Below, in pieces: positions 3,221-32,934 of a stretch of 64,000 nt of DNA. Each line of letters begins with the position of its first letter. Positions within the stretch are counted from its first letter, which is position 1. The DNA comes from Isoetes taiwanensis. Lineage: Eukaryota; Streptophyta; Lycopodiopsida; Isoetales; Isoetaceae. Under the pieces are notes generated by a model. The model made no database searches. It had not been told where the DNA came from and was given only the letters and a program-made list of their open reading frames with translations. The position numbers and the translations under genes were made by a program. The DNA lies in the NCBI GenBank assembly GCA_021234155.1, contig JAJEKV010000193.1, forward strand, positions 310,001 to 374,000, read 5' to 3'.

Positions 3221-3294
3221 TAGTTTTAACGTCACGCCACTAGGCAGCATCCAACTGGACATAGAAAGACAAAAATTAATGAGCCAAATAGATG

Positions 3295-3569: not shown

Positions 3570-3584
3570 CTTGATAATTCGAAT

Positions 3585-4349: not shown

Positions 4350-4491
4350 CATGTCGAGACCATGCCCCAAAAGTGCCCAAAACTGCCTCCAAATCGACCA
4401 AATAAGGGGTCAATGCCTAACTCGGCGAATCTAGCGAAATTACACCCTTAGATCACCCAAATTAGACAAGTTTAACCCATTTAGAGCCAAT

Positions 4492-4558
4492 GTCTCACAC
4501 GTCGCGCCAGGACAGAAAATGAAAAGTTCATTATCGGTCTGGGCGCAATGTGTGAGAC
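4492..4558. repeat. Hairpin repeat, copy 3
   Basis: This 67-base imperfect palindrome has the GTCTCACACGTCGCGCC arm, a GAAAAGTTCATTATC apex, and a closing arm ending GTGTGAGAC. Confidence 0.8.
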
Positions 4559-7500: not shown

Positions 7501-10500
7501 GGAGGAGAGCCATGATGCTTTACTTGCCGAGAGAGACCGACATGCATAGAGGGACAAAGGTCGAACTGGGAAGCTGGAGAAGTGCTAGCAACCGACTTCT
7601 TCCACGAGCTCCCTAGAGGCAAATGTGGAGGATCAAACCGACGAAAGCACAATCAAAGCCACCGTAAGGTACCTCAAGACAAGAAGACGACATAGTGGAA
7701 CGTGACAACGCCCAAGCCATGTGATCGAGGGGATCAAACAAGGAAGTTTGGAAGCTCGATGGAGAAGCAACTAGGGCGAGGCGCAGCCGCGACTTGCACG
7801 GACTTGCATGCAACTTGGTGAACCCAAGGACGACGATTCAAAGAACAACCGCAGAAGAGAACAACCCGCAGGGAGTATAGCCAAAGGAATCGCGACATCC
7901 TCAAGAGACGCCCAAATAGCTTCGAGTATCATGAAGGGGGAAACAATTACCGCCGAGAACAGATCGTGAAGCGGGGCGAAATGCCGAAGCATCAACGCAT
8001 CAAAGACATCTTTAGTTAGAATGTGATGCAAAAGCGTTGTGCCGTAAGCCGACAAACATCGGAGGGCCCAAGTATATCAACAAGTTACCCTGAAAGTACG
8101 AACCGACGCGTACAAATAGGGAGGATATAGATCGCCAACACCATTGCACCGGAGGAACAATCGGCGACATCGCCAAGGAGTAGGTGTGCAACTCGAAGGG
8201 AGGCACAAGGGGGACCTAATAGCTCTAGTAGTAATTGTAATTATGTAAGCTATATGTGTTGCATGTATAGTTCCCTTGTTATTCCTTCCCTCCCATAGCG
8301 TAACCGATCAAAGGAAGAGATGTCAGGCAATTTGCAGGGGTGAAGCAATCAACATCCTCAACACTCTTATGGCAACACGATAACGACAAGAGGACTCGAC
8401 GTATGAGACATCGATGGAGTCGAAGAAACAATATCGGATACAGAGTCGTCCTTTAGCTGCCAAGACAAAGAGTTCAAGATGAAAGATCTTTTTCAACGGC
8501 GCCACCTTCAGGCATTTGAAAAGCGGCATGGAAGATTCAAGTGATCAACTACGCCATCAAAGCCTCCAGCCTCTACATCAAAGAGGAGCCACCGTCAAGG
8601 AGACTGAAGTATCGAGCGACTCGGAAGAACGTCACCTTGCTACTTCAAGCAGGCAACGAGCGGATGAGCTTCTAGCAAGCTCAAGGATCTAAGGCCATGG
8701 GGCCTAGTAGGTTAAATGTAGGGATGGTAACATCCATAGTGGGATTAGAAGGCATTTTCGGATATTCTCGTTGAAAGGATTGCCCCAATATTGAGCTAAG
8801 TGTCAAGGATTGGGAAGGAAACGCATAGGAGTGACTAAAATTATACACAATTGTTAACAGCCATCCAACGTATTGAAACCACTTGGTGAGATTGATCTCC
8901 TCGCTAAGAAGGAATCATTACTAGGATAATTGTTGACCATGTATAAATTTAGTACCTCCAAAAGAATAATCCAACCGAAAGAAAAGAAGTAATCTAACAA
9001 GTCCAGCCAACTTGTTACGATGACATCAATTCGATTGGTAGGAATATTCCAAGAGTTTAAATAACTAAGAAAGGGGGAATCTCTAGAGTAATAAAAGAAT
9101 AATACATGTAAGGTACATCTAAAATAAGAATTATAGTAATCAAATAGTCTTGTGGGACAAAAGGAATTGTCATGATGACAAAACCTTGTGGTTTAGAATC
9201 GTTCTAGCTAAGTAAGTAACCCATAAATATATTGAAATAAATGATAACATAATATGTGCATCCATCTTAGATGGTTATATATGTCAGCTAAGGATAGTAA
9301 ATTAATGCGCTAAGTAAGAAGCGTATAACCTCTTAAGGGGAGAGAATAGATATGACGTTGTGTACAACGTCATTGAAGGGGTGCAGGACCATTTTCTTTT
9401 CGAAGAAAGTGGGAGGGCTCAATCTTATGATTGAACGTACTTGCATCGAAATGACCGACCCATAGAATAGAGAAGCGAATAGAGCGTAAGATAGATAGAT
9501 ACCTTATTGCACAGGAGGCCTTCAACGTGCGAGACTGACGTAGTAGCTAACTACACCAATGAAGTGGAGCAAAACTATGGGAGCAATGCAACGACCAAGT
9601 CATCTCCAAATTACTCGACGCCGGCTCAATGGATGGATGCGTTCTAGCCTTAGGTAAGGTGTGCGCATGTATTATAAGCTTTAATGTGTCTTATAGGTAA
9701 GTTAAATATAGATCCTAATAACTGGATAGAAATTGTTGTACGTATATGTATCATAGGGAAATAAGTTAAATAACAACGGTAATGTGAGGTAGCATGTTAA
9801 TTTATCCTTCGCAAGGATGCAATTCCTTCCAAGGATAGCTATATGACCTCGGGGTCCTTATAAATATAAATAGAAAATAGAATTCGGATATACTTAAGTG
9901 CATCTTAGGGATATACTTCCAAGGGTAATGCAGGACCCAAGGAAGCGAATAAAAAGCACATCTAATTCTTGTGTATGATAATTAAAACCTTGTCTATGAT
10001 ACAATAGGTCTAAATCAGGGTTATTGTTTAAATAATCGCGATCTAAAAGTCGTTAAATATTGCAAAGCTTAGAATAAATATAATTGTACTATCGGAAGTA
10101 ATGTATCCGATACTATGATAATGTTAATTCATAAATATTACCTTAGGATAATTATGTTAATCACATGCATTAAAGGAGCCAGTAGAAATTGGCTCAGGCA
10201 TGTCGATTGGTGTTTAGATTAGTTTCATGTGTAGTTAAGATTAATCTACGCATGCAACCTATGCCAGGTATGAGTTGCATGCGTATTTACCGATGATGGG
10301 ACCACTACGGTGATCTCTAGGGCGTGGTGTAATGTCAATGTAGGCATGACCGCGTTTCCGCTTGGACGAGTGGAAGGTAGATTAGAAAGTCTACTTCTGT
10401 CCCACGGAAGTAGACGACCTCGAGAGAAAGGAGGTCATTGAGAGATGCATTGATAGGAAAGGCACCTTTAGCCCCATATATGCTTTGATAGGAGGAATCT

Positions 10501-11382: not shown

Positions 11383-12466
11383 TGACGTTCCAAAGACGAA
11401 GATACGTCCCGGGACGATACCGTGATCGCCACACGCCGTACACGCCACCCCGACTGACGTGTACGCCGATGTGTAGCCAGGTGAGTAGCCCCTAGGGGGC
11501 AACTTGCTAGGTATGTGCATTTAATATTAATGTGCACATTTACCAATGTGCACATTAATGTGGGCACACCTTTCCATGTGGGCACATTTAGGTGCACACA
11601 TTTCCATGTGGGCCCATTTAGGTGCACACATTTCCATGTGGGCACATTTGGGTGCACACATTTCCATGTGGGCACATTTGGCCACCTAGCTATTAAAGGC
11701 AAGTGGGCCCATTCCCAATTATCCCACATGCCTAAAGGGGATAATTGGAAACCCTAGCCTAACCCCTTGCCTATTTAAGTAGGAGAACCCTAACTTGCCC
11801 ATTTTCGCTCCTAGGGTTTTAGAGCTCGCTTTGGCTGCTCCAGAGTCAAACCGGCCTCCCGCACTGCCCGAGAGAATGGCACCATTAGTTTCCCTTGATT
11901 CGAGCAGTTCAGCAGAATGGTCGGCCTCAGGTCAGGAGGAGCAACCCAAGGATCAGGTATTTAGTTAATTTAATAGCCTAAACCATCTTCTAGACATAGA
12001 ATCGAGGTTTAGCCTATTAAATTGCCCATAGCAGCCTCTCTAGATCTCTAGATACCGGACTCGAACTAAAGAACCTAACTCTATGATATAGATTAGATCT
12101 AGTTCTTTAGTTCTTCTGTGATGTATATGGATGATGTATCTCTATCAACTCCTTGTATTGGGAAGGGGGTAGAGACCTAAAGCTTGGTAGTAGATGCTCC
12201 TAGATTAGCCTCTCTAGCACACTATAGATTCGGCCTGTGTACAAGAACCACACCAGGTTGTGGGTGAAGGGCCGACCGCTAAGAAGGAGGTTCATGTTCT
12301 CGACTCTTGAACGATCCCTCCGGTGTGTAAGGCCCACCGAGATCATTGTGACTAGGTCCCATGACTCACCACCGAAAGCGGGTGAGGCATGGACTCGACA
12401 ACCCGAAGTGGTGTACACTTTCCCAAAGGTTCACCGAATACGGGCAAAGGGCCCTCTAGTCACCTT
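11383..12466 (+). repeat. Second LTR copy (incomplete)
   Basis: Nearly the whole stretch aligns with about 1250-2345 of the first LTR, including the CATTTCCATGTGGGC units and the TATTTAAG stretch. It is incomplete and passes directly into internal-region sequence of the same family. Confidence 0.85.
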
Positions 12467-14403
12467 GACTAACATCACCTCTGCTCATGCCAAAGGCATA
12501 AACCTTGACCTAATTTCTCAAACCCTTGAATTATTTTTCCAAACTGTGGTTTGTTTGTAAATAGAAGCATACCCCATTAGTAGCTCGCAAGTATTGCTCT
12601 CGGCTCGAAGCTGATGTCTTACTCCTAGATAGATGTGCTCAAGAACACCCCCGTTGTTATAGTCATCTAAACCTCAAAGATAGCAACCCAAGCTCAACTG
12701 TTTGTACATCACCTCTCAAGCTCATGCCAAAGGCATAAACCTTGACCTAATTCATTGTCCTTCTAATAGAGTTTGACTTATATAGCCACATTGACCTCCC
12801 TATTGTCGATACCTAGAAAGGAGCTAGAGTCTAGAGCTGCCCAAGTCACTCCATGTGTAGAGATTGGGCTCCCCCAAACCAACTTTGCTAGGACCTTAGA
12901 GTATGCCTCAAACATCATGGAGGTTTTGCAAAACAACCCTCATTTCATGCCATACCACACGTCCTAATGCCCATAGATTTGGAGATTATAGATATGTCTC
13001 CAGTAATGCTGCTCGAGCCATCTTGCTTGCTTATAGAGCCCAAAATGTTGTAGGAGAGCCCTTCAAGTAGACCCTTAGACTCTAGGATATACGAGCGTTA
13101 CTTTCGAAGGACGGGGCCAGAGCCACAGAACAGCTAGAGGCACAACTCCTTGAAGACATCAAGGACCCAGCCGATGTACACACAGATAAGGAGAGGAGAC
13201 CGAAAAGACAGACCCAAGAGAGGGAAGCACAACGACAAACACCTCAACCGACAAACGAGTAGAACAGGACACCACCGGCCTATCATCAATCTTCAGCAAA
13301 TGGGAAGAATATTTGGTAACCAACAGCATCAAGAATTTTTCTAGATGTCAACCTCTCGGCTACCACGTCCACGAGCTCACATCAGAAAGAGGATCTCAAC
13401 GCCTTCACCAACTCGATGCACATGAGTTCAAATGGAAGAACGCAAGGCAGCAAAATACAGGCGCAGGAAGACGTTAGACATCGATGCCGCGTTAGCATCA
13501 CGAGCTAGAGCCAGAGGGCATAATCTTCCGTCGAGGAGAGAAGTAATGGCGACACAGGAGCGTATAGAAACCGGAGGGAAGATCACGATGACCTTGCAGC
13601 CCAGCAGCTCAAGTGAATGTCATGCAACGTCAACAAAAGGAGTAACCAAGCTAGGCAACCACAAAGCACCTAAGGCTGACCAAGATGAGCTTCCAGCTCC
13701 CTTGCACCGGCAGGAGACCACGAGGGGAGGAAACGCATATCAGGGAAGGAACATCTCCAACTTGAAGGCCTATATCAGCATTAGGGGCAAGATCAAGGAG
13801 GAGAATATTCTGCTCAAACAAGAATTTTGGACCCAGTAACACCTAGAACCAAAGGAAGGACAACCTTACTACGTCAGCCAAGGAGGCGAGACTCGAATGG
13901 ATAGGACCCAAAGGACGGAGGAGACGACCTAGCCAGCAGGTACAAATCACGCAAAGGCGACCAGAAGGAGCTATGATAGGGAAATAGAGATGACCACACT
14001 TCCAGGCACAGGAGAGGCACCTCGGAATGAAGCAAAGCCCAAGCAACAGGAGTCGCACTCAGAAATTCAACCTGCGGAGGAATGACAATGCCTGCCTATC
14101 GACAATGATCTCAGAGCTTCGAAGACATTCAAGAATGCCCGACTGCAACAGCCAGGTGACCCTACTCAAGCTCGATCAATGGCACCACACATCAGCAACC
14201 TTGCAACGACACACCGCATGTAGGGACGTTGAGCAGTCACCGCATTCCTCACGACGAATATACACATTAAGGAGGAGCATCCTTCTCAAGGGATCACATC
14301 GACGAGCTCGGATCAGACATGAAGCTCAACAATAGTAGCAGCATCTCAAGGAATCCCGGGGTCAACCAGAACGAAGAAGATGCAACAAAAACGAAGGATC
14401 AAA
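12467..14403 (+). mobile_element. Second block of LARD-like internal sequence
   Basis: The block is colinear with about 4700-6590 of the first internal region, from CTCAAACCCTTGAATTATTT to GAAGATGCAACAAAAACG. It gives an LTR-internal-LTR-internal arrangement, as expected when two copies share an LTR after recombination. It ends abruptly at the pogo-like transposase fragment. No gene is recognised in it. Confidence 0.75.
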
Positions 14404-15552
14404 GACTGGAGTGCGAGCTGGTGGCATGAAAAGTGTTAGGATCCTTGCTAGATGGGGAGATAGGAATGTGTGTCACCATATTTCTAAGAATAAGGAATGG
14501 CTGACAGTTCTATATTATGTTAGTAAAGCAGGACAAGTATGTTATGTATTTAAAGGGAATAAAACGAGAGGCAGAGATCTAATGGCAGGCTTGGGGCTAG
14601 AGTAGCTATGGACTATCAGCAAAAAGCATGGATTATATATAAGTTGTTTGATGCATGCTTTAACAACTTTGCAGCAATTGTTTCGATGGACTTCTGAAAA
14701 TAGACCACATTTGCTTATTTGTAATGGCCATGGGAGTCATGTCAGCTTGAAAGCCATCCAACGTGCCAAGAGAATTGGTCTTCATATCCTTTGCTTACAT
14801 GCTCACACTAGCCATAAATTGCAGCCCTTTGACATATCCTACTTCTCTCTATTCAAAACTCGTTTTAGAAGGAACAGTGGTGTCTACATGCATGCTAGAC
14901 CAAAGGAACAAAGCATGAATATACAAAAGAGGATATGGCTGTGATGGTATCTACATCATTGTAGGAATCTTTGACTCATTTCAATATTGTTGTTGGGAAG
15001 TTATTTACTTGCATATATGCCATAAATAAATTGACATAAGATCATGCCTTCTTTATTTTGATGGACTATTATAAATGCCATGAACAATACATTCTGCATT
15101 CTATAATTCTTGGCGGTCCTTAGGGTAGAGATTAAGATCATTATTACATTTGGTTATAACACTATGATGACCAATAAATACAAAAGATAACAGATGACGA
15201 AGTACTCTATAGCATCAATAATTTCTGTTCCACCTTCCATACACAAAATCTTACGAGATTTAGATCTTTAGTTTTAATATCAATCCCGTGTTTTAAAGAA
15301 AGGTAAAACACCAAAACCTTTGCCTCAAGCCTACCCTACTGCTAGTTGTGGTACTGAAGAGGTTAGTGTCTTTAGAGAAATTGTAGATCAATTTTATTAT
15401 TGTATTGTTTCCTTCTAATGGTTGATCATGTTGTTTTCTTATTATTGCAAAAACCCCGTGTGACACTTTCTTGTAGAGGAGCTATTTGTTGGACTTACAG
15501 GTTCTCACATAGGATCGTCCTACAAGCCCTCCCAAATCTGAACCCCAAAGCA
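14404..15552 (+). pseudogene. pogo/Jerky-like DDE transposase fragment, copy A
   Basis: The sequence is about 1.15 kb and homologous to 46822-47957. Coding traces at 14411-14605 and 14648-14944 show a DDE_1-type transposase: an ARWGDRNVC strand-like segment, then LLICNGHGSHVS and HAHTSHKLQPFDISYFSLFK, matching the family pattern of D-G-H-G-S-H and LQPxD. The aspartate usual in the DGHGSH position reads Asn here. The N-terminal DNA-binding part and the first Asp (NCDETG in copy B) are cut off at the junction with the LTR-element block. An in-frame stop separates the two ORFs. The downstream half (14945-15552) is noncoding or decayed but conserved between copies. Confidence 0.75.
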
Positions 15553-17656: not shown

Positions 17657-19878
17657 AATAATGTGTAGCTCAAATGGCGATTTTTAGCTAGATTCTTATT
17701 AAATATAGAGCTAGTTGTCTGAATATAAAGAAGTCGCTACCCTATATAAATGTATTTAAGTTACATATTGTACGAATTTGAATTTATACCCCATGCATTT
17801 CAGTAATGCATATATTGCTGGTAGGGAGAATTGGAAATCGGATGCCGAAGTCTTCGTAAAGAGGATTGAAAAGTGCCTCGGCATTTGATTATTCCTAGTC
17901 GGTAGATATATTTAGAATAAAAATTTCTAATAATGTTAGCCCCCCATAAGTGATGAATTTATGAGGAGGCCTCTTAATGAGTTAAGATTTGGCGAAGTTA
18001 AGGCATTACAGGATTTGGCGAAGTGGCCTAAATGGCCATTCCATAAGTATATCTAGTTCTCACTTGGGACTAAATTGGCCCCAAAGTCAATACCACTCCA
18101 ATTAGCAAACATTTAATTGGCCATTCTAATGTCGTAATAGGCAATAAAGTGCCACGAAATGGCGAATCTGCAGGTAGTCCGTAGGTAAGGCATCCTACTC
18201 AAGCCGGCCGTCGCATTTTTCCTCAACCTGTAATTTGTGGCCAAATGGCCCGCCGGGGCCGCTAAAATTTTTGATGCCATCAAACTGTTTTAATCCTATA
18301 GTGAATATTGTTGAAATTGATGCCCATATGAATAATGGTTCTCAAATACTATTGACATACAATATTTTGAATATCGTAGTTGTTTGAAATATTAGTTATA
18401 AGTTTCAACTCAAGTAAATTGCTAAGCTGAGATCCTTCACAGAGTTTGAATCAACAAATTTAGCAGTAGGATGGATTGTGGTGAAAAAGGTGATTGTTAA
18501 GCAGAGAATCCTAGTTAACCTCTCTCACTTGCACATATTTAAGTGCTTATCAAGCTTGAGATTCCAAGTTGGTGTATTGTTGAAGTCTCCTGCCAAGATC
18601 CAACCCTCGATTTGTTGAAATTTTGTATATTACGTTGTTCATCCTTTGGTCAAGCCATTAGCATTCCTATAAATGGACTTTTGAAGAAGTTACTGGACAT
18701 AGTTATGACATCATTGTTACCAAAAGCCTTTGTGGACTTTTACTTGTAGTGGGGCTTCATGATGAGGCATTGGACTTGCTGACCCACCACCTCGCCCCTT
18801 ACATGGTGTGAAAGCCCACAAAGGCTTTTCACATAATACAACATGGAAATTGAAGAACTCATTGTCTCTGGAATGGAAAACGACACGTTGATTCTGCTCA
18901 AAGTAATCAAAAAAGAAATACTCTCCTCTCCAATTGTGGAGGGATGAAACAAGATTGCTGGTTCCAGGACATACTCTCGGCTCCTGCAACTCACAAGGCC
19001 CCTTGGAATCTGCTCCCTAGTTTCCTTCCCCCCCATACTTAAACACCACCCCTAATTTTAACTCGTAGAATATATGAAATAAAGGAACCTACATATGCCA
19101 TGGCCCCATAAGCTAATGATATCCTAAAAAGGGAATGATTGTCTAAGCAGAAATAATAGCCACTATTATGAAAAGGCCCCTAAGCTAATAAAGAATGATG
19201 GAACTTGTCGTGCAATTCCTTGCCTTATTGCACTCTACTCAGCCTTAGCCTTCTGGAGCATTAATTGAGTTCCAACACAATCTCTATATAGAAAAAATTG
19301 TCAAGCTTTACAAATGCATTTCTAGACAAACTCTCTTGGCATGCCTTTTCCTTACAATCAAACATAAAGTTGCGTATTAAACGGGAGCAAATCATTGAAA
19401 CGAGAGCAAAAGGAATATTCCTCAAAGATTCCCTTTTTTTTTACAAAAAAGGGGGTAAAACGAGGTTAAAAAAAAAAAGATGCATGAAATTCTATTTTGA
19501 CCCCCCCCCCAAATGACTAATTTTTTTTTGCAACGAAAGAATTGACTTTTTTAAAGTGTCACTTTTCTTAGCAAATAGAATGTTCTTAAAGTATGTTTTA
19601 AGAGAGAAACTCTAATTTCAGAGGATAAAATATTTAACAAAAAATTGAAGTAAGTCTGTAACTAAAACTGTAGTATTCTCAAAATTTGAAGATAGAATCT
19701 TCATATTCACATGCAAAATTTACATCTTTTTTCTAAGACTCCGCTTATGTGCAAAAGTGTGAGGAGGATGAGAGAGGATCCGGGACGCCTTCATATTCAT
19801 TTATGCCATCGCCATCACCTTCACTTCTTTCACCATTGTCCTTTCGAGGAAGTGCTTGAGTTATCTTCCTCATCACTA
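17657..19878. other. Intergenic, nothing assignable
   Basis: This is AT-rich DNA with short homopolymers. Two overlapping minus-strand frames (18717-18989 and 18740-19036) resemble nothing recognised and have no supporting splice or start context. A stretch near 17985-18060 repeats the phrase TTTGGCGAAGT. Confidence 0.5.
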
Positions 19879-22800
19879 TCAACGCATCGGTGAAGCATTG
19901 TCACCATCTTCTTCATCATCTTCTTCGTAATTACAAGCTTTTTTAAGCAAATTGATAGTCTTCTGGTGTAGACGATTGTCAGATTTCAATTTAAAATCAT
20001 AGCACAATATAGTCACGTCATTAAGGTTCAGCTCGTCCCTACAACCCACCTTCTTGGACTTTCTCCCTTTTCCTTGGCTTCTCATTTCTAACTCATATCT
20101 ACCTTCAAAAGCATTTTCTGAGCGTGTTGCAAGCCAATGAATCTTGAGTTTAGTGACTAAGCCTTCCTCCTTGACTGTGTCAAGCACTTTTGCTATCCAG
20201 AACGGTCGACCTTTGTCATCCTCCTCAGTCGGAAGAGCAATTAGCATACCTTTGGTAATTTCTGTGATATTACCTTGAGGCTCATTCCCTGCCTTGGTCC
20301 GAGGTACATGACTTCGGTCCTCCTCGTTTCTCATTGCAGTGCAAATGTAGCCTTCGCTTGACCTCGCTTGGTGATGGGGTTGATGGAAGGTGTTAGGCCA
20401 TTGAAATGGTTCTTGCAACTGCCTTAGAGCTATATTTTGTACAACAATTTTCTCTGCTCGAGAAAGAAATTACTCCACCACATCCGATCTTCTTCTAAGA
20501 AGTACTTAAAGCCTGAGGAAATTCCATTTTCAATGGCTTTTAAGGATGACTCTGGGGTACTTTTCTTCCTCGCTTGGACTCCTTAGGATTTTTGAGAGGA
20601 AGTCAAAGACGTTCTATGAAGGAAGTGTCCGAATATATTTAAGGAAGCGTAATCCCTCCGTGGACTCCAAATTTTAGTTGTGGTATACTTCTTCCCCGTA
20701 GAAGAAGCTTTGGCCATCCTTCAAGTAGAACTTGATATGATGTTGAAAGGTGAGATCATTCAACTTGTTCACAGCTTGTTCTCTCTTTTGAACGTTGAGA
20801 GAAAACAAACTCTCCAAATCAGCGCTCTCTTTAAGAAGATCGACCACCGGAGTAGGAGTGTAAGAATCTTCAATAATTCGAACTAAAGAAGGAAGATGTA
20901 AAGCCTTCTTCCTTCTAAGGCGCACTGAAAATCTGCTGAACATTTGGTCAATCTGATCATGAGTGTGGCCTACAAGTAAGAAACCGAGCTTCACTTTTCT
21001 AAAGATCCCTAGCTCCACTAACATGGCACAGTACGCAAAGAGTGTTTGATTCTTGTTCTCCCTTGTAGTATTGTCAAGTTGCGATAAAGCAATCGGTGGT
21101 AATTGCTCTTGCTCTACAGACCTTGTTAAGAATTGTAATTGTGAGGTTCGGGTCACCATGCAAGTTTGGATACGCCAAAAATACTTTGCACCTTAGACTT
21201 CCTTTGAAGACCATAACTCCTACAAGGTGGACCTTAACAAAACATTCCTCTGGCACATCTTTAGGAATGTTCAAGAAATGTGGTAGAGTTGTTTTTTTTT
21301 GGTCCATTCCATCAATCACAACAGACATGTATTGCAAAAAGGACGTTCAAGAGCTTTTTTCTATGCTTGGCAAGCTTTCTTCTCTCTCACGCTTGTTGTT
21401 CACGATGTCCGGCAAGGTTCTCATGCACAATATCAGAGAAGAAATCAGGTCAAAGCATTTTCTCTCAAAACAAGTGAGAGATTGGAGAACATGAACTTAC
21501 TTCTTTCGACCTCTCTTTTGCGTTTCTCGTTGACTCTTTAATTACGCACACCTCGAGCAAAAGTGACATTCTATGTTTTCTAGGAATTTTCACAAGACCA
21601 ATTCACTTTTCCACGGTCCGTGAAGTGTGAGTAAGAGATGTCTTTGAAGCCGAAAGTGCAAGTCTCTTTGTACTCATTAAAAACATCTTTTTGGTGATGT
21701 TATCGGGTTAAATGATACATGTTGTTTGTTAGGTAGCTTCTCACATGTTTCTCTAAAATATTTCTCCATCCATGACACAGCAGCAAGGGCATGCATGGTT
21801 ACAACTCTTCTTGGTCCACAATGATCATCGATTGCTGGATTTTTGTCCAGTCTTTTGTGTATTCTAGACATTCTGGTGGACCCTAAACGGTGGACAACCA
21901 TAAAACATTTCTGGCAAACTTCTTGACGGTTAATGTAGTGCAAGAAGGTGTTGCGGTCTGGTCTTACATGATAAGCTAAGTAGGCATTCTGGTCTGCCAA
22001 TGTCATGGAACTGTAGTTGTCTCTAACTGCTCGTAATTTAGCCATGTTAAATCTGTTGATGCAACCCAATGAGCAGCATTTAGTTCTCAAAACTCTCCTC
22101 ATTTTGTGTTCATCCATAAGATTTCTTCTTCTTACAGAGGAGCAAGCCCTCAAACCAAAATCCACCTTGAATTTCTTTGAAGATTGGCTGGAGAACATGT
22201 AATCTCTTTGTTCCTCGTTGGTGTCTTCATCTTCTGATGAAACTTCTACCTGGGGTGACTTCCTCTGCCCCGAAAGTGGTGTGCTTGTAGAGGAAAAAAT
22301 GACCACGTGAAGTTGTTCCCTAATAGGGCGGGGTACAAATGTTAAAGGATGGTGATGGCCCATAAGAGGTTGTGGCATCACCGTTCTTGTACCATCTTGA
22401 AAAGGAGTTCTTGCAAAACATCTCCTTTTAGAGCGGACTGAATTCTGCAAAATCCATGTGTCACAACCGCTGTTGTGTGAAGAGGAGTGCATGCCGGAGC
22501 GTCGTCCTCATTTGTAGTGAAGTCCCGTGAGAGAAATTTGTAGTGAATCTCACGCCTTACGTGTTTTCGTGTTCCTTGTATGTTTGCAACGGGGGCGAAA
22601 CTACAAAAGGGGGGTAGCTTGTTCTTGAGCACCCTTTGTTGTGGAGCTTCAGAGGTCCTGGGATGGAACGAAGGGTGGTGGCAGCATGCTCCGAACTGGT
22701 GGTGATGCTTTGGAAGGAGATCCCAGTGTCAAGTCTACTGGACTTGGTGACGGTTGGAAGGGTGGTGGAAGTCTGTTACGTGCTGGACTCGGTGTCTCTT

Positions 22801-22948
22801 CAAGAAGCAAGAACGATGAAGTAGAGGTAGGAGTCGGAGAATACCGGTCTTCAGAAGAAAAGACGTTGGTTCCGAGTGTGTCCTCAGAACTAGACGAGCT
22901 TGAGACAACGAAAGGTGGTGGAAGTTTGTTGACGAAGCGGTTTGTCAT
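19879..22948 (-). pseudogene. DUF7869-type putative transposase, broken
   Basis: Minus-strand pieces in order match the uncharacterised eukaryotic family catalogued as DUF7869. (1) A proline/serine-rich N-terminus (22649-22948) carries three LPPPF motifs. (2) A 271-residue ORF (21677-22492) has a Cys-rich start (CCSLGC) and VCQKCFMVVHRLGSTRMSRI, then MEKYFRETCEKLPN. (3) At 21074-21337 lies VVIDGMDQKKTTLPHF. (4) The ORF at 20674-21159 has QLDNTTRENKNQ and LLVGHTHDQIDQMFSRF. (5) The ORF at 19879-20418 has a BAH/SH3-like strand pattern (PFWIAKVLDT, KIHWLA) and an acidic tail. The spaced Asp residues (IDGMDQ, LDNT, HDQID) look like an RNase H-fold DDE core, which is inference. Frame changes, notably in 21160-21676 and 20419-20673, break it. 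It is divergent from the methyltransferase gene at 23818. Confidence 0.7.
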
Positions 22949-23817
22949 CTTAAGAACTGCAAAACAGTGTAGAGTTTAGAGAATGTTTCTCTACTGCAGA
23001 GCTTTTCTTATTCCAGAATACAAGCCCGCCTAGTACAATTAGAAGTTCCTGCAACAATTAAGCGAAAGGCAAACTAAAAGCTATTCCCGAATACACTAGA
23101 GCAGAACAGTAAGGCCAAACGTATTCCACTTCACATAGAAAACGAGCAAGACGGAATGGACACCTTTAAAAGGAAATTTTGGCGCTTTGGGCCATGATTC
23201 CAGCCTCTGAGCTCAAGTCGCCAGCCACTAATATAATATTCAGAGATCAGATTCCGCTCCACATAGAGACGACATGGACAGGTAAGCAACTAAGTACAAC
23301 GTACCATCATTTTTTAGTTTGTTTCTTATTCTCGAATACACTTTTTGCTTCGCGGGAAGGCGTGTAAGTGTATTCCTAATACACTTTTTGGCTTACACCT
23401 CGAAGCTTAAAGTGTATTCCTAATACACTTTCGCCTTTAGCGCTGACAGTGTAAAGTGTATTCCTATACACTTTGCCTTCGCGTGAAGGCTTAAAGTGTA
23501 TTCCGTAATACACTTTAGCGAGCCAAAGTGTATTCGGAATACACTTTCACGCTGAAGGCAAAAGTGTATTCCTAATACACTTTAGTGACTTTAGGTTTTC
23601 AAAGGACGATTCTTTTGAATTTTTCTTGAATTTAGGCATTTTTTTTGCTTTCTAGACATGTTTTACCTTTTTTTGGTCAAGGAAGCATTGTTGTTTTTGG
23701 TCATTTTGTCCTCTTTTTGTCCTCTTTTGTCATTTTCTCAAGTCATTTTGTATTCGAATAGTTTTAATGCAAGTGTTTTCACTAAAAGAAGTTTTACACA
23801 CATTTTGTACAAAAAAG
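22949..23817. promoter_or_regulatory. Shared divergent upstream region with palindromes
   Basis: About 0.87 kb lies between the DUF7869 relic (minus) and the methyltransferase relic (plus). It holds at least ten copies of a palindrome centred on TATTC-GAATA: weak ones at 23009-23021, 23082-23099 and 23751-23760, and a dense array at 23327-23583. T-rich DNA (23630-23740) precedes the plus-strand ATG at 23818. Confidence 0.6.
23327..23583. repeat. Array of seven ~23-24 bp palindromes
   Basis: Half-site AAAGTGTATTC meets its mirror GAATACACTTT (or TAATACACTTT) at about 23327-23347, 23366-23386, 23409-23431, 23453-23474, 23493-23516, 23525-23547 and 23561-23583. The spacers are 13-22 bp. One spacer (23475-23490, GCCTTCGCGTGAAGGC) is itself a perfect hairpin. 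Confidence 0.92.
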
Positions 23818-26800
23818 ATGGCAGCAAGAAAACATCACAAGAAGACCATTAAAATCGGGTCTAAAACCGCGACCCACGAGAGACGGGTTGATGAAATCAA
23901 CGCTGCGATTTACGAGAACTACCAAACTCGGTGGTTCTTCACAAGGGGTACAATTGGGAAAGTACAAAGACCCTTACGTTCTTACATGTCCGCTTTGAGT
24001 CTTTGGTTCAAAAAGGTACGATGATGTAGAATTTGTCCGCATGGGAACCATTCAAGCCGTGGAGTGAAGTAGCCGGGAGTTTGGACAACGCGGAGACCGT
24101 TTTTCGCGACATCTCAAGGTTTCATTCATGTTGATGAAGCCTATTTTAGATTGGTGAAAGTAAATCCACCGCACTTTACAAGTATTGTTCTCACTATATC
24201 AACAAGAGATCGCTTATGCCCATAATCAATGCCGCTCGTAGCTCACAAAGCGAGGAGTTCCCCACAAAGCGAATCGAGAGCACGGGAAGAGGAAGATCAA
24301 GGGAATTTATCGGGGAGTCCATCACGGGTCAAGAGCCCATCGGTGAGTTCATCAGGTTCGGAAGAGCAGCCACCTCCACCACCGTCAAAGAAGCAGAGGC
24401 AAACCGTAGCTGCTAAAGAGCCTAAGAAAAGAAAAACGGTTATCATTGAAACAGAAGATGCTCCTGAGGATGCACACAAGAAGAAGAAGGGAAAGGCAAG
24501 CACTGGCGCTGCCATCAAAGAAAAAAAAGGTTGATAAAACAAAGAGAAAAAAATGGAAGAGATAAACCCGCACAAATTTGTGCAAGGTGTCATTTATTTG
24601 CTTATCACATCTATGAAGCTTCCTCCAAAAAAATGAAGTCGAGAACCACCACTGCAGGTTCGAAAGATATATGCAGACCATCTAAGGAACCTCAAGGACA
24701 GAATCCGGAGCAATCCCAATGCACATGTTGCTCCAATTGTTGTTCTTGTTGATAGAGAGCAGTGCACAACTCCTGCAGAGTACGATAGAGAAAATGCGGA
24801 CACATATACGCATTATGTTTTGGGTGGGAACCACAGCTTTAAGGCAAGGAGGCAATTATACAAAGAAAAAAAAAAATCCTAGGTATTTGTCCGTTTCTCC
24901 AGGTACATCGTGGTTTGACCGACGAGGAAGCCAAAATCCAACACTCTTACAACACAACGAAAGTACAAGTTAAAAATGAGCTTTGTCGACAAAATTAGAT
25001 TCATGCACAGAGAATATGTCATCTTCAAGGAAAAGTACGGAGAGGATCTCAAAAAGCCACAGTACTCCCTTGAACTTAAAGAAGCTTGTGCCATTGAGTG
25101 TTGCCTTTAAATAATGACGAGGCGAACAAACGGGCGTCGCTCATTGGTCATGACAATTGGTTTCAGCTAGCGTTCAGGGATGGCCGGGTAAGGTTACAAG
25201 CGTATTCCAGAATAAGATTTAGTGTACAACTAGCTTCTAAGTTTTTTTTTTGTTTGCAGATCTGGGAGCTCCAAAACGAAATATTTAATATGTTTGAGCG
25301 CGGTGAGCTAAAAAGTAAGGGAAAGGTGTCGGAGAAGAAGAAAGGCAGCGACGTGCCAAAGAAAGAAATGACCATCACTGTCTGGAGGGAGATGCAGGGG
25401 TTCACCCACCTGTAAATTACTAGAACGGCCTTCGCAAAAGGTGGTGGACAAGGAGTTCACACTCGAAGAAATGTCGAAGGAGTTGCACAAGTAAGCATTA
25501 CAATCATGGCTGCCTTTTCACTTGTAGAATTCTACAATTTCCTCCAGATAACAGCAATCTGGTGCTCCTGGAAATGTTTTCTCACCCTCGAGGGAACGAA
25601 AGTGTATTCCAGAATACACCTTCTCACTTCTTGTAGTGTAAAAGTGTATTCCCGAATACACTTTTACTCCTTTGAGTCACTGGCGTGATTCGGAATACAC
25701 GCTCTAACTTGTTGCGTTGTAGAAGTGTATTTCAGAATACACTTTCGCTCCTTCTTTGCAGTTAAAGTGTATTCTGGAATACACTGCTGCAACAACAAAA
25801 ATATTGTTTACAGCGCTTGTATTTTCTAGAATAACTTTAGGTGGCAGGAAGATGGTTTACTTCACGTTTTCTCTTTTCAACTGCTAAAAAGGTTGTGGTT
25901 TTCTTTCTAGCCAAAAAAATGTTATCACCTGCCAGACATGTCTGATGGAGCAACTCAACGTGGAGACGTGGGAGAGGTGCAAGGAGCTTTATCCCATAGC
26001 TACATCCGACGAGCGTATGCTTCAGTACGCACCAAATTTTGAGGGATGGGTACGCTGACTAAACACGTCATACTTTACTTGTCTCCTCGCCTCAATCTCC
26101 CCTTTGTTTGCGAACAAGAAGAAAAATAAGGACCTGCCGCCAGAAGGTTTCATGCACCTCGTCCGACCGCACGAAGAAGAAAGAACAACCGGCAGAGGGA
26201 GAACTCTAGATGTGGAGCCTTCGACTATGAAAAGTTTAATTTGTTTGACCAAAATAATTTGTTTTCCATCATTCACGGGGACCGCACTAAATTGGTTGGG
26301 ACAAGAAGCCACCCGGTGGATTTCACAATCGGTGATTGCGGACCTTCCTTATGGCTTTAAACTAAAGGACGTACCATTCTGACGACGATCGACCTTTTAA
26401 ATTTTCAGAGTTTAACGCTTTCGACGGCGGACATCAAACAAGTCACAACGCCAAGCACCGGCGCCTTGTCGTGTTTCACTCGAGCATGCAATCCGCCTTG
26501 TGGAGTCCACGCTTAAAAATCACTTGGATCCCCAAAGGTAAGCCGGTTATGAGAATTTGGTTTGGTGAGTACTTTATTCGGAATACGCTGGGCTTGTTTC
26601 TTCTTTTTGTTTTAGTTTTCTATTCGAATATAATTGCCTTTGACTTGTTCTCTTTGTTTGTTTTTGTTCTGCTTTTCGTTAGTGACACCACTCTAATTTC
26701 TACAATGTACAAAACAAATGTAAACTACCATGGCGGGCGGGCCGAGGTTGTTTGAGTAAGGTTGAATACCTCCATGTTGCTTTCTGGAGTTTCGATGGAA

Positions 26801-27298
26801 AACGCACCATGGAGCATTTTAACACAAAGAAGATGCCGAATTTTTCTAATGTGTTGGAATTTCCAGCAAGCTTCAAAAGCTACAGACCCTAGTGCACAAG
26901 GTAGAATTGTTAATCACTACCGAAGCCTCAAAGCTAATCAACCATCTCCTAGACATGTTTTCACGTCCAGGAGATTGGGTGCTTGATGCCTTCTCTGGCT
27001 CTGGTACAACAATAGCTTGTGCACTTAGGAAGGGCCGGAATTGTGTAGCAAAGGACATTGATAAAGAAGTCGCGGCAATTCATCAAGATGAGACCGGGCA
27101 GCCTTGCCTACCCTACCGGATGAGCACCAAGAGTTAGGGGCCAAATCCTCATCCGATTTTGCCAAGCTGACCTCTTCTGAGATACAGCCTCCATTCACTA
27201 GCTCTTTAGAGGATGAAGCTACTTTTGCAGAGCTGAAAGAAGTGGCACTAGCTACCATTCCTGAAGACACTGCAGAAGTAGAATATGTAGCAAAATAA
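23818..27298 (+). pseudogene. ParB-like/N4-N6 DNA methyltransferase gene, multi-exon, broken
   Basis: The gene starts with ATG at 23818 (MAARKHHKKTIKIGSK). A Lys/Pro-rich linker follows (24340-24535), then a conserved block at about 24680-24960 with APIVVLVDREQCTTPAEYD and YVLGGNHSFKARRQLY, like the ParB/sulfiredoxin-type GNH.xxA motif. Further exons contain IGHDNWFQLAFRDG and IWELQNEIFNMFERGE, separated by a clean 72-base GT-AG intron (25188-25259), and CLMEQLNVETWERCKELYP near 25940-26000. The methyltransferase part has motif IV as ADLPYGF (26338-26358; the usual DPPY has Leu at the second position), a VVFHSSMQSALW strand near 26470, and the SAM-binding DAFSGSGTT at 26985-27011 preceded by HLLDMFSRPGDWVL. 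Catalytic-before-SAM order indicates the beta class. Several frame changes and stops break it, unless some are unrecognised introns. Palindromes occupy its introns. Confidence 0.7.
25599..25785. repeat. Second palindrome cluster (five copies) in a methyltransferase intron
   Basis: Copies lie at 25599-25619, 25641-25664, 25683-25702, 25722-25745 and 25764-25785. The same half-site AAAGTGTATTC is used with centres CA, CC, G, A and TG. Single weaker copies are at 25202-25214 (inside the 72-base intron), 25820-25835, 26574-26588 and 26621-26630. Confidence 0.88.
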
Positions 27299-27639
27299 CA
27301 GGGGGTTCCAGGGGGATTTGATATAGAGATAATTCTTGAAACCATAGACCATATCCCTAAAACAATTCAATGGGTTATTATAAAAAAAAACATAGATTTA
27401 AGATAAAAAATATTCACATTAGCTTACTGATTAGATTGGTTAAAGTAGTCTTATTAGGATATTGAATTATTTTGGTAGAGGTTCGAATCCCCGTATTTCA
27501 TATTCTAAAAGCTTAAGCGAAACCGTATAGAGGCTCCATATACCATCAAAACCTTAGGCAAACTCGTATTTGACATCTTAAAATCATAGGCGTCCCCAAT
27601 CATAATTGAGCATAATCGAAACGAGGGGTGTCCAGAGGC

Positions 27640-27812
27640 TCCAACATACAGTCTGGGCCGTAGGATTGACAGATCCGACGACTGTGGTAGTCCAGGGTGC
27701 ACCTCGTTTAGAAAAAGACAAGGATAAGGCACAAGAAAAGGATCAGACTACAGAATCTGGCACAGCAGAAACAAGCAAAAAGCATGATGAAGACTTCGAT
27801 TTGGACCTTTAG
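27640..27812 (+). CDS. Possible terminal exon, acidic/Lys-rich tail
   Basis: A plus-strand frame ends EDFDLDL* after a KDKDKAQEKDQ stretch and resembles the charged tail of a nuclear protein. It follows the methyltransferase C-terminus (ends 27298) after AT-rich DNA containing a GGTTCGAATCC tRNA-like box near 27483. It could be a last exon of that gene or unrelated. Confidence 0.25.
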
Positions 27813-28182
27813 TCTGTCTTTTCCAAAAAACATTAATACTGACCACCATGTGATGTTACAAATTGTGTCATTGAAACACTCTTCATTATATAATAATTAT
27901 TTTATTCACTACATTCTGGTGTTTTCAAGATAGTACTTTTTGAGAATACAAAAGCATGTCTAAATTCTTCTCTTTTCAAGTGTTGGTTTTGGCAAAATCC
28001 AAGTTCTTTTACACTAGGGGGCCAAAAAGGAGGTAAAAAAAAATTAAGCCTATTGGAACTCCCAATTAGAAGGAAAAAAGTGTCATTTCCTAGATCAGGC
28101 TGTTTTTTTCAAGGGAATCTTTGAAACGGGAGTGCTGCAACACTCCCGTTCAATCCCAGTTCAACGTCGATAAGATAGAAGA
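27813..28182. other. Short intergenic stretch with a perfect hairpin
   Basis: There is no gene. ACGGGAGTG-CTGCAA-CACTCCCGT at 28126-28149 is a perfect 9-bp stem with a 6-base loop, just outside the Helitron end at 28183. The adjacent AAGGGAATCTTTGA (near 28111) recurs inverted near 19420. Confidence 0.55.
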
Positions 28183-28543
28183 CTAGTAATGGTGCCTAGC
28201 GTTGCTGGGCTATAAGGCAATTATTAGGTTCAATGATTGCTTTTACATTAGAACAAATAATGTAGGTCAATTTTGTCACTCATTCTGCCTTTGTTTACTC
28301 AATGCGTCATTGAAAAGTGGCAGAGCTTAAAATTGGTTGTATGTTTATTTGGGAGCCACGTGAATGTTTACATAGTTCGACATAGGTTGGAAATGCTACT
28401 ATGATAAGCATTCTTTATGTAATATTTGCAATAAAGTTGCATTATAGAAGGTGTAGAAGAACGTTAATGGAAATGGCCTTGTAGTGAAATAACATTATTG
28501 GGATTGCATTAGTTAAGGGTGTTTGAGAAGAAAATACATAGAA

Positions 28544-31322
28544 TCCTATATTATAATGTTATTGCGTAAGTGTTGGACCCAGCCCTAGATTGGACGGCCC
28601 AGATTTTGAGCTAAAAGATTAACGATCCAGATGCTTACCATTTTTTTTGTTCGTCTCGCTGTATCGATTTAGGGTTCATGCAGTGAGGCATCTGCCCATA
28701 GTGTTCTGGAGCCACGGCAAAGAAAATCGTATTCTTTCCCAACCATCAGCGCTTGCCCTAGATTTTTTGAAGGCCGTTTAAGCAGCCCTAACGGTGGAGC
28801 TCTTGGTTATGACGGCTCTGGGTTTTTTGGTGGGTGATTTTTTCATTTGGAGCTCTTGGATATGGCTCTCTTTCCCCTGCATCGAGCTATGGAAGAAGCT
28901 AAGAGACGAGCACTGAGTTCAGACAAAGATTGCAGGTATGCCAATTGCCCTCTAGACGCTGGCTTAATCTAAAAACTATGAGCAGACATGGTAAATCGAG
29001 CATTTGAGCTAGGATCTTTTGAAAAAGATCTTTCTCTTACATTTTCTTCTGCCCACTTCAAATTGCTACTGTTTTTAACTGCATCCTGCATGGTAAGTTT
29101 TGGTTCCTTTCGAAAATGATCCTTTTCTTATGTTTTCTTCTGTTCACTGCAAATAGATGCCACTAAATTATCATCTTTAATCTTCATGCAGTAAGGACAA
29201 TTTGCCCGGGTGCTCCATCAATTATTGGCTTTGTTGCCTAGAATTGACCCAAGACGGACAAGCATTCGAACAATATGCTGTAGTTTTTAGAGCATCGAAG
29301 ACACAAGTCTTATGGCTCTTCCTGGAACAGGATTCACGTATAATCTCCTTTCTGACATTTGCCATTCCAGGACACGAATTTGCATCACCCTTTTCAAACT
29401 GGGATTGAAGACAAGTGCTCGACTGCAAGAACCCACATTTTCTAACTTGGTGGTCGAACATTTGAAGCATCAGAGTCTTCAAAGTAACAACATCATCACC
29501 TATGCCGCTCTCTTAAGGAGTTGTGGCAAAATGGAAGCTCTTCTGATAGGTAAGTTGGTTCATGCCCATGTTCTCAAAGTGAAATATGGTCATATAAGTT
29601 TCCTTGGCAACCTTATTTTGGAGATGTATGGTAGATGTGGTGATATAGAATTTGCAAGCTTTATGTTTGTAAGAATGCGTCGCTCCAATATATTTTCGTG
29701 GACTATAATGATGGCTGCATATGTTGAGCATGGCCGAAATCAGACTGCCTTATGCCTGTTTCAGCAAATTCATGAAGAAGGCATGAAACCAGATAAGATT
29801 ATATTTGTAACATCTCTTAATGCCATAACAGAAGGTAGATTGTTACATGCTGGAATTGTTGATAATGGATTTGAATCTGACTATATCATCCAGACTGCCC
29901 TCATAAACATGTACAACAAATGTGGAAGCGTTCATGATGCGAAAACAATATTTGCCCAAATGCATTTGCAGGATGTAGACTCATGGACTAGCATGATATC
30001 AACATATGTGCAATATGGGCATGGGAAGGAAGCCCTTGCATTGTTTCATCAAATGCAGAGAGACGGAGTGAAGCCAAACAAAGTTACATATATCAGTATC
30101 CCCATTGCATGTGCTGTGCCTGATGCACTGAGAGAGGGTAGGCTGATCCATGTCCGGATTACTAATGATGGCTTTGATGCAGACCAAGGCTGCGAGGCTT
30201 TAGGGTCTGATTACCTATTTCATGCTGGTTCTTGCAATTGATGTAAGAAGGAAATGAAACATAAAAGTAACCTTAATTTTAACATGTATGTTGTTACACA
30301 ATTCAAGCATGAATCTTTTTATGGAACCCCTAGAGAAATACTAGCATGCAGATAAGTCTAATGTTCACCTTATAATATCATTGAGAAGCAAGAGTGTGGA
30401 ATCTATATTTATCGGTGGCATGATCTATTACTAACATGCTGTGAATGCTCTGCAGAAAAGAATCTTTAATGGGTCAATGTGTCGTGCTACAAAATGATCT
30501 ATAATGGGCTGAGAGTAACCATGTAATTGCACACAGAGCATAAGAAATTGCAGCTTTAACTTCTATTGCAATGTAATCATAAGGACATTTATTTGTGTAT
30601 CTTGACAATGTGCTATATGCAATGGATATGGCAGTTTCAGATAGATAATTATTCATAGCTTTCACATGCAAATGAGCGCATGTAACACATGATCTTACCA
30701 TATGGCAAATGCTTGCTTTGAACTCTTTTTTCTAGCAAGAATATACCATCCAACAAGATATATTCTCCTGGAATTGTCTTAGCAGTATTTTTAGATGGGC
30801 AGACTCTAAAAATAGTTTTTCTTAGAGGAAGGAATGCACCATAAAATAGAAGGGCATCCAACTTTTGATACCTCTTCAACGTAGCTTTAGCAATATAGCA
30901 AACCCATTGCACACCAAACATAATGATTTTTGGCTTTTTATATGAGTTTTGCAATCACCTCACTATGTTTTTATGCCCTAGAGAAAGACAATGTTGATCC
31001 CAAAAATGTTATTTAAACAAAAGTTGAGTTGAGATTGAAGTTGCCTTTATTTTGGGATTTCTTGCCGCAATAAAATCTTTGCCAATGTTATTCTTCATTT
31101 AGATTGCCAAAAAGATTGGCCAATAAGACATACACGAACATTGATAGTGTTAGTTTCTCATGACAATATTATGCTTCTTAGGACATGGCCATCGCTAATA
31201 TAGAACCAAAATTTTAGAATATTGCAATGATCAAAACTGCTTATAGTTCTGCAACCTTCTTCCTTCTTGGGTTTACAAATGACTCCCAACTTATGCCCAG
31301 CAACGCTGGGCACCATTACTAG
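28544..31322 (+). mobile_element. Inner Helitron carrying a PPR gene fragment
   Basis: The 5' end TCCTATATTATAATG at 28544 is preceded by A. The 3' end has the hairpin GCCCAGCAACGCTGGGC, spacer ACCATTA and CTAG at 31319-31322, followed by T. The length is 2,779 bp. No Rep/helicase is present, so it is non-autonomous. It shares terminal motifs with the Helitron at 37243-40021 but carries different cargo. Confidence 0.75.
29312..30241 (+). pseudogene. PLS-class pentatricopeptide repeat fragment captured in a Helitron
   Basis: The 309-residue frame shows about five PPR units: roughly residues 58-90, 96-125, 126-161 (NIFSWTIMMAAYVEHGRN), 191-221 (LINMYNKCGSVHDAKTIF) and 222-257 (DVDSWTSMISTYVQYGHGKE). 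PLS proteins bind organelle RNA and usually carry many more units plus E/DYW domains for C-to-U editing; those are absent here. The unit around residues 162-180 is shortened relative to the family (KIIFVTSLNAITEGRLLHA). The N-terminal ~40 residues do not look like an organelle transit peptide in good context. Both Helitron ends enclose it, so it is most likely a captured fragment rather than a working gene. Transcription from upstream splice-like sequence (28700-29190) is possible. Confidence 0.8.
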
Positions 31323-32934
31323 TAGTATTATAATGAGATAGCTTTATTGAGATGCACCCGTAGATATTTTGAGAGTGCGGATAAGGTTTTCGAAACACCA
31401 TTATTTGCCTATAGCTTCCATATTGTCTATAAGATGTCAGATGGCCAATATATGTTCATCCAGTGTTCTCTTTTTGCATTGATATGTTCATCCAGTGTTC
31501 TCTTCTTGTTCTCTTTTTGCATTGCTATTAGCGCAATAGACTTATGATTTAAGGCTTCAATCCAAATTGCCCAATGAAGAAACTTTAAATTAATTCTACA
31601 TGTAAAAAATAGATAGAGAGCAAAACCATTGCTGAAGTTTATGATGAAGTTGAGAAAGGTGTAGTTCATGTGTTATGCACCGTGTGGGAAAGTTCAATGT
31701 AAACCTGTAAGGAACTCCAGCCTTATCACAATTCATTATCATTAGATCCAGATCTAGATCTGCATCTTCTAAAACAATGCACATATGTAGCTCCATCTAC
31801 TAAACAGGGCTATACCAGAGTCACAGCCGCTTATAAACTTGTTAAAATAGTCATTTAAGTTCATAGAAACTTCAATATCTATATCTTGTAAATGCATTGG
31901 GGGTTTTTGGGGGCTCTAGAAAATGATAAGCCTACAAAACTAACATGGACAAATCTGAACTTGCTGCAGAATCTGGTATAAATCTAAATACGAATGCAAA
32001 TATTTGGCTCTAGAAAGCTTCATAAAAAATCTCCCATGGCATTATAAAAAATCGTTAAATCTTCATTTTCCAAAATCTAAGGCCATGAAAATTAGATAAG
32101 CTTGGAAAATTGGCACGGAGATGGTATCTGACGCTAGCGTTTGACGAAGCAAAGCTGCTTCTTATCAAACATGCTTTGTCTAGTTTTTTTTTTTACTTTT
32201 CCTCTCCTCTGTGAACGCGGGCAGCCGTTAGGATATGGCAATACAGATAGATCAACCGATTCTTCTATAGGACAGATATAAAGATCAGGCCAAGCGGCCA
32301 AGCCCTAGCTAGCGGCCAAGCCCTAGCCTGGTAAATGTCTCTTTTTTCTTTTTTGTTGGGCATGCGCTCGTGCTTAGAGCAGTTTTTCTAGCTATGCTCT
32401 AATACTCGTCCTCAGTTGTCCTCAATCGATCCAATGCCTTTTCAGGCTCCTAACTACCATTTTCCATTTTTTGGGCTATTGTTCCAATTCTTCAAGGGCT
32501 TCTATTTCTGTCACTGACACGATTTAGCACTGTTGTAACTTTGGGGCTTCTGCTAGCGAAGCCATCTTCTGCCATAAGTGATCGGCAATCATGTTTTTTT
32601 CATTCTGTTGCTCTGCACAAAACTCTATGATCCCTTGAACGACATTCCTCCTTTCTCCCGTCGCAAATTTGCCACAACCATATTCGCTGCTAGAAAGCCC
32701 CACTGACCCAAAAGACATTGTTAAAGCAGAGCTTAGGATGCAAAAGCATATGGCTGTTGGAATGAAGCATAAACTCAAAGCCATGAGGTGAGCATTTCGT
32801 CCTTACATTCTGATGCATATTCTCATGTATGGTCTTCAGTTGTAGATCTTCAGTCTTCGATTGTCCCAGTAGAGAGAATCTTTAGCTTTTTATTGTCCCA
32901 TTGATATCTATGTACCATTCTCAGCTACCCTTTT

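Follow-up and report, generated by a model that had tools for sequence, protein, structure and literature searches.

Two relics of protein-coding genes lie back to back in a 64,000-nucleotide stretch of the Isoetes taiwanensis genome (assembly GCA_021234155.1, contig JAJEKV010000193.1, positions 310,001 to 374,000), here called the window. One, on the minus strand, encodes a DUF7869 protein; the other, on the plus strand, encodes a DNA methyltransferase. A short palindrome fills the DNA between them and the introns of the methyltransferase gene. Is this pair one mobile element that carries its own DNA-modifying enzyme, as an earlier note made from the window alone had supposed, and what would the palindromes be for? 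Comparison with other copies in the genome answered the first question: the window copy is a decayed member of a large transposon family that carries its own DNA methyltransferase gene.

We searched the I. taiwanensis assembly (1,658,258,908 bases in 1110 contigs) with the intergenic region of the pair. This gave 1052 first-look candidates, and the 40 that were scored yielded 103 matching pieces. Sixteen copies were fetched (ten with about 10 kb on each side, then five, then one), 15 of them selected by the intergenic region and one by the methyltransferase. Both genes, partial or whole, were present in all 16. The DUF7869 domain region aligned in full in 14 copies; in c930 it was outside the aligned part, and in L042 a deletion of about 0.5 kb interrupts it.

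The copies have common boundaries. On the left, the homologous stretch of 11 of the first 15 copies, c1064 among them, began at window position 19359-19376; the exceptions include d1044, which begins where its fetched stretch begins, c1051 (19870) and c930 (21966). On the right, it ended at 28154 in 9 copies, and the letters outside were unrelated in the end alignments. The ends read AACAAAGTTGCGTATTAAACGGGAG... and ...CGTTTAATTTGCAATCATGTT, which are imperfect inverted repeats (20 of 25 letters match by eye) with the pattern AACA-nnn-TTGC-nn-ATTAAACGGGAG at both ends. Both ends were recognised by pattern in 9 of the 16 fetched copies; the other 7, with one recognised end each, were left out of the duplication count. 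A 4-bp target duplication was exact in 8 of the 9 (TCTT, AGTC, GTTA, TGTT, CCAC, TATC, GCTA and ATAC), and in the ninth three of four letters were equal (CGTG/TGTG). Eight of the nine were 8.28-8.44 kb long; the remaining one, L042, was 7.77 kb owing to its internal deletion. We conclude that the element belongs to a cut-and-paste-type DNA transposon family with terminal inverted repeats and a 4-bp target duplication. This length agrees with that of the Sola superfamily, which makes Sola a candidate class only. These ends became visible only by comparison with other copies; with the window alone, neither a search for inverted repeats bounded by target duplications nor the local alignment of flanking DNA gave anything above shuffles. 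The features of the window copy are as follows.

19361-28154, no strand: whole element, about 8.37 kb without its own insertion; boundaries common to the fetched copies.
19361-19387, plus: left terminal inverted repeat, AACA..TTGCGTATTAAACGGGAG, with an apparent 2-bp insertion in the window copy (left-end alignment of the window and 8 copies).
19879-22948, minus: DUF7869 gene, which presumably encodes the transposase; disrupted in the window, with open stretches of 491 and 400 amino acids in other copies.
20677-21346, minus: DUF7869 domain with motifs VVIDGMDQ, QLDNTTRENKN and GHTHDQIDQMF; PF25273 at E 1.8e-46 (reading joined by eye), 4.1e-49 in copy L040.
22949-23818, no strand: shared divergent promoter region, in which the main array of palindromes covers 23009-23760; the distance from a gene start to its nearest site is 66 bp for DUF7869 and 63 bp for the methyltransferase.
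23819-27812, plus: DNA methyltransferase gene, broken in the window; other copies have an open C-terminal exon ending in ..DEDFDLDL or close variants.
24637-24973, plus: well-conserved N-terminal region (PIVVLVDRE..YVLGGNHSFKARRQL.., copy alignment), earlier labelled ParB-like.
25188-25259, plus: predicted intron (GT..AG and frame) with one palindrome site, as in 13 of the 14 elements measured, window included.
25491-25910, plus: predicted intron (GT..AG and frame) with a second palindrome array at 25599-25833.
26270-27137, plus: catalytic part of the methyltransferase, DLPYG before DAFSGSGTT, PF01555; order from the joined reading.
26565-26682, plus: predicted intron with two palindrome sites, as in 14 of the 15 elements measured, window included.
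27283-27709, no strand: 427-bp insertion foreign to the element, with a tRNA-like stretch at 27410-27510; missing in the 11 copies that align across it.
28113-28154, minus: right terminal region with GGGAATCTTTGA, the hairpin ACGGGAGTGCTGCAACACTCCCGT and what remains of the right inverted repeat, which reads ..CGTTTAATTTGCAATCATGTT in other copies, from the right-end alignment of the window and 8 copies; the last ~13 bp are lost or altered in the window copy.

These boundaries replace the earlier ones (19879-27812 for the element, 27298 for the end of the methyltransferase gene). The stop that gave 27298 sits in the 427-bp insertion, and the coding region ends at 27812. The insertion, which interrupts the 3' end of the methyltransferase gene, may be a short interspersed nuclear element. 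Its tRNA-like stretch holds GGTTCGAATCC, presumably a box B-like sequence; neither ARAGORN nor Rfam found a tRNA in the insertion, and Rfam at curated thresholds gave no matches. Window positions 27281-27403 match the right flank of copy c1043 at 81%, and the alignments flanking the insertion overlap by about 9 bp in several copies.

The two genes also turned up together when each was sought independently by its protein. The methyltransferase exon gave 1737 first-look candidates, of which the best 150 were scored (all below E 4e-23), and the DUF7869 domain gave 8578, of which 150 were scored. These lists are the top-scoring part of each family and are uninformative on DUF7869 genes without this methyltransferase. 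Between them were 52 pairs within 30 kb, against a chance expectation of 0.8. Fifty of the 52 were divergent, and 36 were spaced by 5-7 kb (5658 bp in the window).

One copy is arranged in an unusual way. L042 spans 557-8323 of its fetched stretch with a 4-bp duplication ATAC, the DUF7869 deletion of about 0.5 kb and open methyltransferase stretches. At 8741-9000, about 0.4 kb from the first element, is the end of a second one in the opposite orientation. This arrangement is compatible with mobilisation in trans and with clustered insertion.

The protein on the plus strand is a beta-class N6-adenine/N4-cytosine DNA methyltransferase, an assignment made from its motifs and profile matches. PF01555 (N6_N4_Mtase) matched at 26850-27137 on the plus strand (E 6.4e-13). 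The window reading joined by eye matched at E 1.4e-11, and open copies matched at E 4.6e-16 and 1.1e-17. In the joined reading, ADLPYGF is at residue 668 and DAFSGSGTT at 824; we take DLPYG to be at the motif IV position and DAFSGSGTT to be motif I, so that motif IV comes before motif I. The DAFSGSGTT sequence (FxGxG type) was unchanged in all five aligned copies. A part of the N-terminal half was almost invariant across lineages in the alignment, and a GGNHSFKA motif was seen in the N-terminal part by eye.

The DUF7869 protein is most likely the transposase of the element. Besides the methyltransferase, it is the protein under selection in an element that has inverted repeats and target duplications; in addition, the acidic residues of IDGMDQ, LDNTTRENKN and GHTHDQID follow, by eye, the order in RNase H-fold transposases. 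Single open reading frames of the window matched PF25273 at 20674-21192 (E 6.8e-39) and, under the curated cut-off, at 21074-21346 (E 1.4e-4). A fold search with the domain listed no RNase H-like match; its single-sequence model was poor (predicted local distance difference test score, pLDDT, 41), hence uninformative. Both genes of the window are disrupted by frame changes and stops.

Both proteins have nevertheless been maintained in the family. For codon-position and dN/dS (ratio of nonsynonymous to synonymous substitution rates) tests, the references were open stretches of several copies taken from stop to stop, with some noncoding letters included. Copies with fewer than 300 usable letters were skipped (c930 in the C-terminal part of DUF7869, c1064 in exon 4), and L042 was left out. 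Differences at codon positions 1/2/3, summed over copies, were 437/375/1036, 125/94/386 and 114/166/461 in three methyltransferase exons, and 435/409/1157 and 331/212/735 in two parts of DUF7869. Against the divergent lineage, methyltransferase dN/dS was 0.07-0.10 for the four copies compared in exon 1 and 0.02-0.03 for three of the four in the catalytic exon. These values are rough, since dS exceeded 1 and was near saturation; the ratio was incomputable for the fourth copy in the catalytic exon and for all three divergent copies in exon 4. For DUF7869, dN/dS between the two main lineages was 0.11-0.19. Closer pairs gave 0.12-0.87, as expected from drift of dead copies after insertion. The methyltransferase has evolved under purifying selection. 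It looks at least as constrained as the presumed transposase, the two proteins being compared at different depths.

The palindromes are clustered within the element. The 64-kb window has 13 exact half-sites AAGTGTATTC, 9 in forward and 4 in reverse orientation, every one between 22949 and 26700. A looser core, TATTC-n(0-4)-GAATA with at most one mismatch, was found nine times each in the 870-bp intergenic region and the methyltransferase gene, never in the DUF7869 gene and 10 times over the 56.6 kb outside these three; in the 1480 bp of noncoding DNA, shuffling gave a mean of 0.2 sites (maximum 2). All nine core sites of the methyltransferase gene were within the three predicted introns, which account for 610 bp out of 3480 bp (binomial p 1.6e-7), a test that depends partly on the gene model, as the introns were drawn from GT..AG and frame.

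The full 18-bp palindrome GTGTATTCCGGAATACAC travels with the element. With up to 4 mismatches allowed, the window and 15 copies together held 145 sites, 2-17 in each of these 16 elements, and the flanks (140,945 bp) held none; 50 control palindromes, scrambled with the half composition unchanged, gave a mean of 0.38 and a maximum of 4. Perfect sites numbered 48 of the 145, none of them in the window copy. L042, which is outside this count, the per-region site table and the half-exchange comparison below, had 14 further sites, 4 of them perfect. Core sites numbered 4-12 in the intergenic region (15 elements measured, window included), and in exon 1 there were none in 12 of 14 elements and one in the other two; this table omits c1064, whose gene start was too divergent for the anchor to match, and for d1042 it lacks values for exon 1 and for the first intron measured (intron A). 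The large intron of the divergent lineage could not be aligned to that of the window, yet it still had 6-7 core sites in the three copies measured. Of the 74 centres that were not CCGG, 47 were CCAG or CTGG (37 of 60 for the nearer lineages and 10 of 14 for the divergent lineage; 60 and 74 were obtained by subtraction, since the centres listed, with the rarer types cut at twelve, cover 143 of the 145 sites). As these are the expected decay products of methylated CpG, this suggests that the host cytosine-methylates dead copies.

The interpretation given in the earlier note is supported in part. Profile matches bore out its divergent relics (DUF7869 on the minus strand, N6_N4_Mtase on the plus strand, about 0.87 kb between them), and the clustering of half-sites agreed with its description of a promoter region and introns filled with the palindrome. 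That the pair is one mobile element, that the genes co-occur divergently and that the palindrome moves with them all held in the genome copies. The opposite outcome that it had named, lone genes with no palindromes and no common boundaries, was not seen among the fetched copies, chosen as they were by the intergenic region (15) or the methyltransferase (1).

The two halves of the element do not always share a history. In four copies (c1064, d1055b, d1045b and d1042), the DUF7869 gene was 92-94% identical to that of the window and the methyltransferase gene 72-79%. In their intergenic region, identity was 83-88% in the left part (84-92% in other copies) and about 78% to the right of the array. 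For L042, the corresponding gene values were 93% (DUF7869) and 71-80% (methyltransferase). The high-identity alignment ended at 23515-23516, within the array, in d1055b, d1045b and d1042. The switch of lineage fits recombination in or near the array, by which a methyltransferase lineage could move between elements.

What, then, do the palindromes do? With moderate confidence, our best explanation is a two-gene transposon whose methyltransferase reads the GTGTATTCCGGAATACAC arrays and marks its own promoter. The N-terminal part of the enzyme would most likely recognise the 18-bp palindrome. Palindrome arrays between the two genes, in the promoter that they share, and within introns of the methyltransferase gene would recruit the enzyme to the element, and it would then mark the promoter and introns there. 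The likely purpose would be to keep both genes expressed despite host silencing, or to regulate them. The analogy would be with the VANC anti-silencing proteins of plants, acting here by addition of a mark. The palindrome binder, the methylated base and the effect are the parts of this model that we infer. We tentatively propose a more specific form, to which we give somewhat less than an even chance: N6-methyladenine (6mA) or N4-methylcytosine (4mC), placed by a sequence-specific methyltransferase on the arrays of the element alone, would be a private epigenetic identity within a nuclear genome of plant type and would shield the promoter from silencing by cytosine methylation, and the methyltransferase half would be swappable through recombination in the array.

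Several points weigh against this explanation. Binding and methylation of the palindrome by the enzyme are predictions from sequence, and the DUF7869 protein or a host factor could be the binder. The N-terminal domain had no ParB match in Pfam, NCBIfam, PHROGs or the PDB, so that the ParB-like label of the earlier note is unconfirmed in family searches; nor was its similarity to two phage-type proteins of viral-contig locus L002 above shuffles (score reached by 179 and 60 of 500). A fold search with the ParB-like piece listed no ParB-like match either, the single-sequence model being poor (pLDDT 55) and hence uninformative. Helical phasing of the site spacing, a possible sign of a cooperative filament, was not significant (p about 0.15). 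The third-position excess in the catalytic exon was due solely to the four divergent copies; the other eleven gave 66/122/118, no excess. Finally, with 1737 loose candidates for the methyltransferase and 8578 for DUF7869, many DUF7869 genes may sit in elements without this methyltransferase.

The palindromes might instead be operators for the DUF7869 protein or a third factor, serving autoregulation of both genes or assembly of a transposition complex, while the methyltransferase acts elsewhere. In favour of this, there are sites 66 bp and 63 bp ahead of the two start codons, and elements with different methyltransferase lineages have one DUF7869 half and one palindrome in common. However, sites also fill three introns of the methyltransferase gene, the DUF7869 gene of the window has none, and the sites are central in the element. 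Transposase sites are usually subterminal. We consider this explanation unlikely.

Less probable still is that the palindromes are structures rather than protein sites, that is, hairpins in intron RNA, DNA cruciforms or recombination hot spots. Shuffled versions of the intron array have a folding energy of -43.8 kcal/mol and the array itself one of -90.9 kcal/mol (z -11), and the lineage switch between the DUF7869 and methyltransferase halves lies in or near the array. Such folding, however, is expected of any palindrome array, and one specific 18-mer, beyond generic palindromy, recurs across strongly diverged lineages. That two unrelated relics merely lie next to a satellite-like repeat, as the lack of terminal repeats in the window alone might have suggested, is hardly credible, being contradicted by the common ends, the target duplications and the recurring divergent pair.

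Self-modification by a transposon has been proposed before, as can be judged from the excerpts of the papers compared here. The giant Ectocarpus transposon Sola1-1_Ec32 (21.5 kb) carries a gene for a 1104-amino-acid protein, ParB-like and N4/N6 methyltransferase, and self-binding and self-modification were proposed for it (PMC12477816). Both it and the Isoetes element are DNA transposons with the transposase (presumed in Isoetes) encoded on one strand and an accessory N4/N6 methyltransferase on the other; by description, Sola1-1_Ec32 differs in size (21.5 kb versus 8.3-8.4 kb) and in its transposase, classed as Sola-1 where that of Isoetes is identified only as DUF7869 (PMC12477816). The excerpt of that paper mentions no palindrome array, selection test or module exchange (PMC12477816). 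The element is thus not wholly undescribed, as the candidate label of the earlier note had it: ParB-like and N4/N6 methyltransferase genes in algal transposons have been published, and so has the idea of self-binding and self-modification (PMC12477816). The literature searched on ParB, methyltransferase and Sola transposons in algae, eukaryotes and ferns gave, in the excerpts, only that paper for this kind of gene. It did not mention DUF7869, and its excerpts contained neither the pairing with DUF7869, nor a candidate target site, selection on the enzyme or module exchange.

The transposon VANDAL21 of Arabidopsis has a protein that works by way of a short motif; this VANC21 motif is present upstream of VANA21 and in introns of both VANC21 and VANB21 (PMC5735166). 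The likeness to the Isoetes element is in the dense arrays of a short motif in its own noncoding DNA, introns and upstream region (PMC5735166). VANC differs in its motif, YAGTATTAY, and in that binding was demonstrated by chromatin immunoprecipitation sequencing and electrophoretic mobility shift assay (PMC5735166), whereas binding to the Isoetes palindrome is predicted. Fungal DNA transposons that carry TET/JBP genes also have a DNA-base-modifying enzyme on board, yet one that acts on the methyl group of 5-methylcytosine, so that the enzyme and the transposase groups are others (PMC12730594).

A further likeness was in L002, whose phage-type protein has a ParB-like part (by eye) followed by a DNA methyltransferase. 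Its motif I region has 40% identity over 50 residues to the Isoetes enzyme; its N-terminal part differs in having no detectable similarity. The methyltransferase had only distant matches around motif I in viral contigs (8 loci) and short matches in phages (17 records), and a scan of bacteria and archaea confirmed no relatives. In the viral contigs, sequence patterns detected no DUF7869 relative, and the one palindrome pattern scanned had no exact match.

The window also contains other repeats and fragments. A 29-nucleotide inverted repeat (28182-28210 and 31295-31323, 97% complementary) encloses about 3.1 kb with an open frame of pentatricopeptide repeats at 29291-30241, possibly another transposon or a captured gene. 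Such repeats next to the element, like the size of the genome, point to a land plant. Long direct repeats (1306-6588 and 11438-14403, 94-95% identity) have an integrase fragment near them (796-1299), and a 1.15-kb repeat occurs at 14403-15549 and 46823-47958 (91%). An open frame at 60604-61281 on the minus strand has a weak SWIM zinc-finger match (E 0.0013, under the curated cut-off) and is perhaps a remnant of a transposase of the Mutator-like type.

With the Isoetes family, nature provides many copies of a transposon in which a DNA methyltransferase of bacterial type has evolved under strong selection, in a nucleus that is probably that of a land plant. Whether plants contain 6mA has been questioned (PMC12695648). 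For that question, a named enzyme and a named 18-bp candidate target can now be tested. The published algal proposal, that a transposon protein binds and modifies its own transposon, gains a concrete candidate site and evidence of selection.

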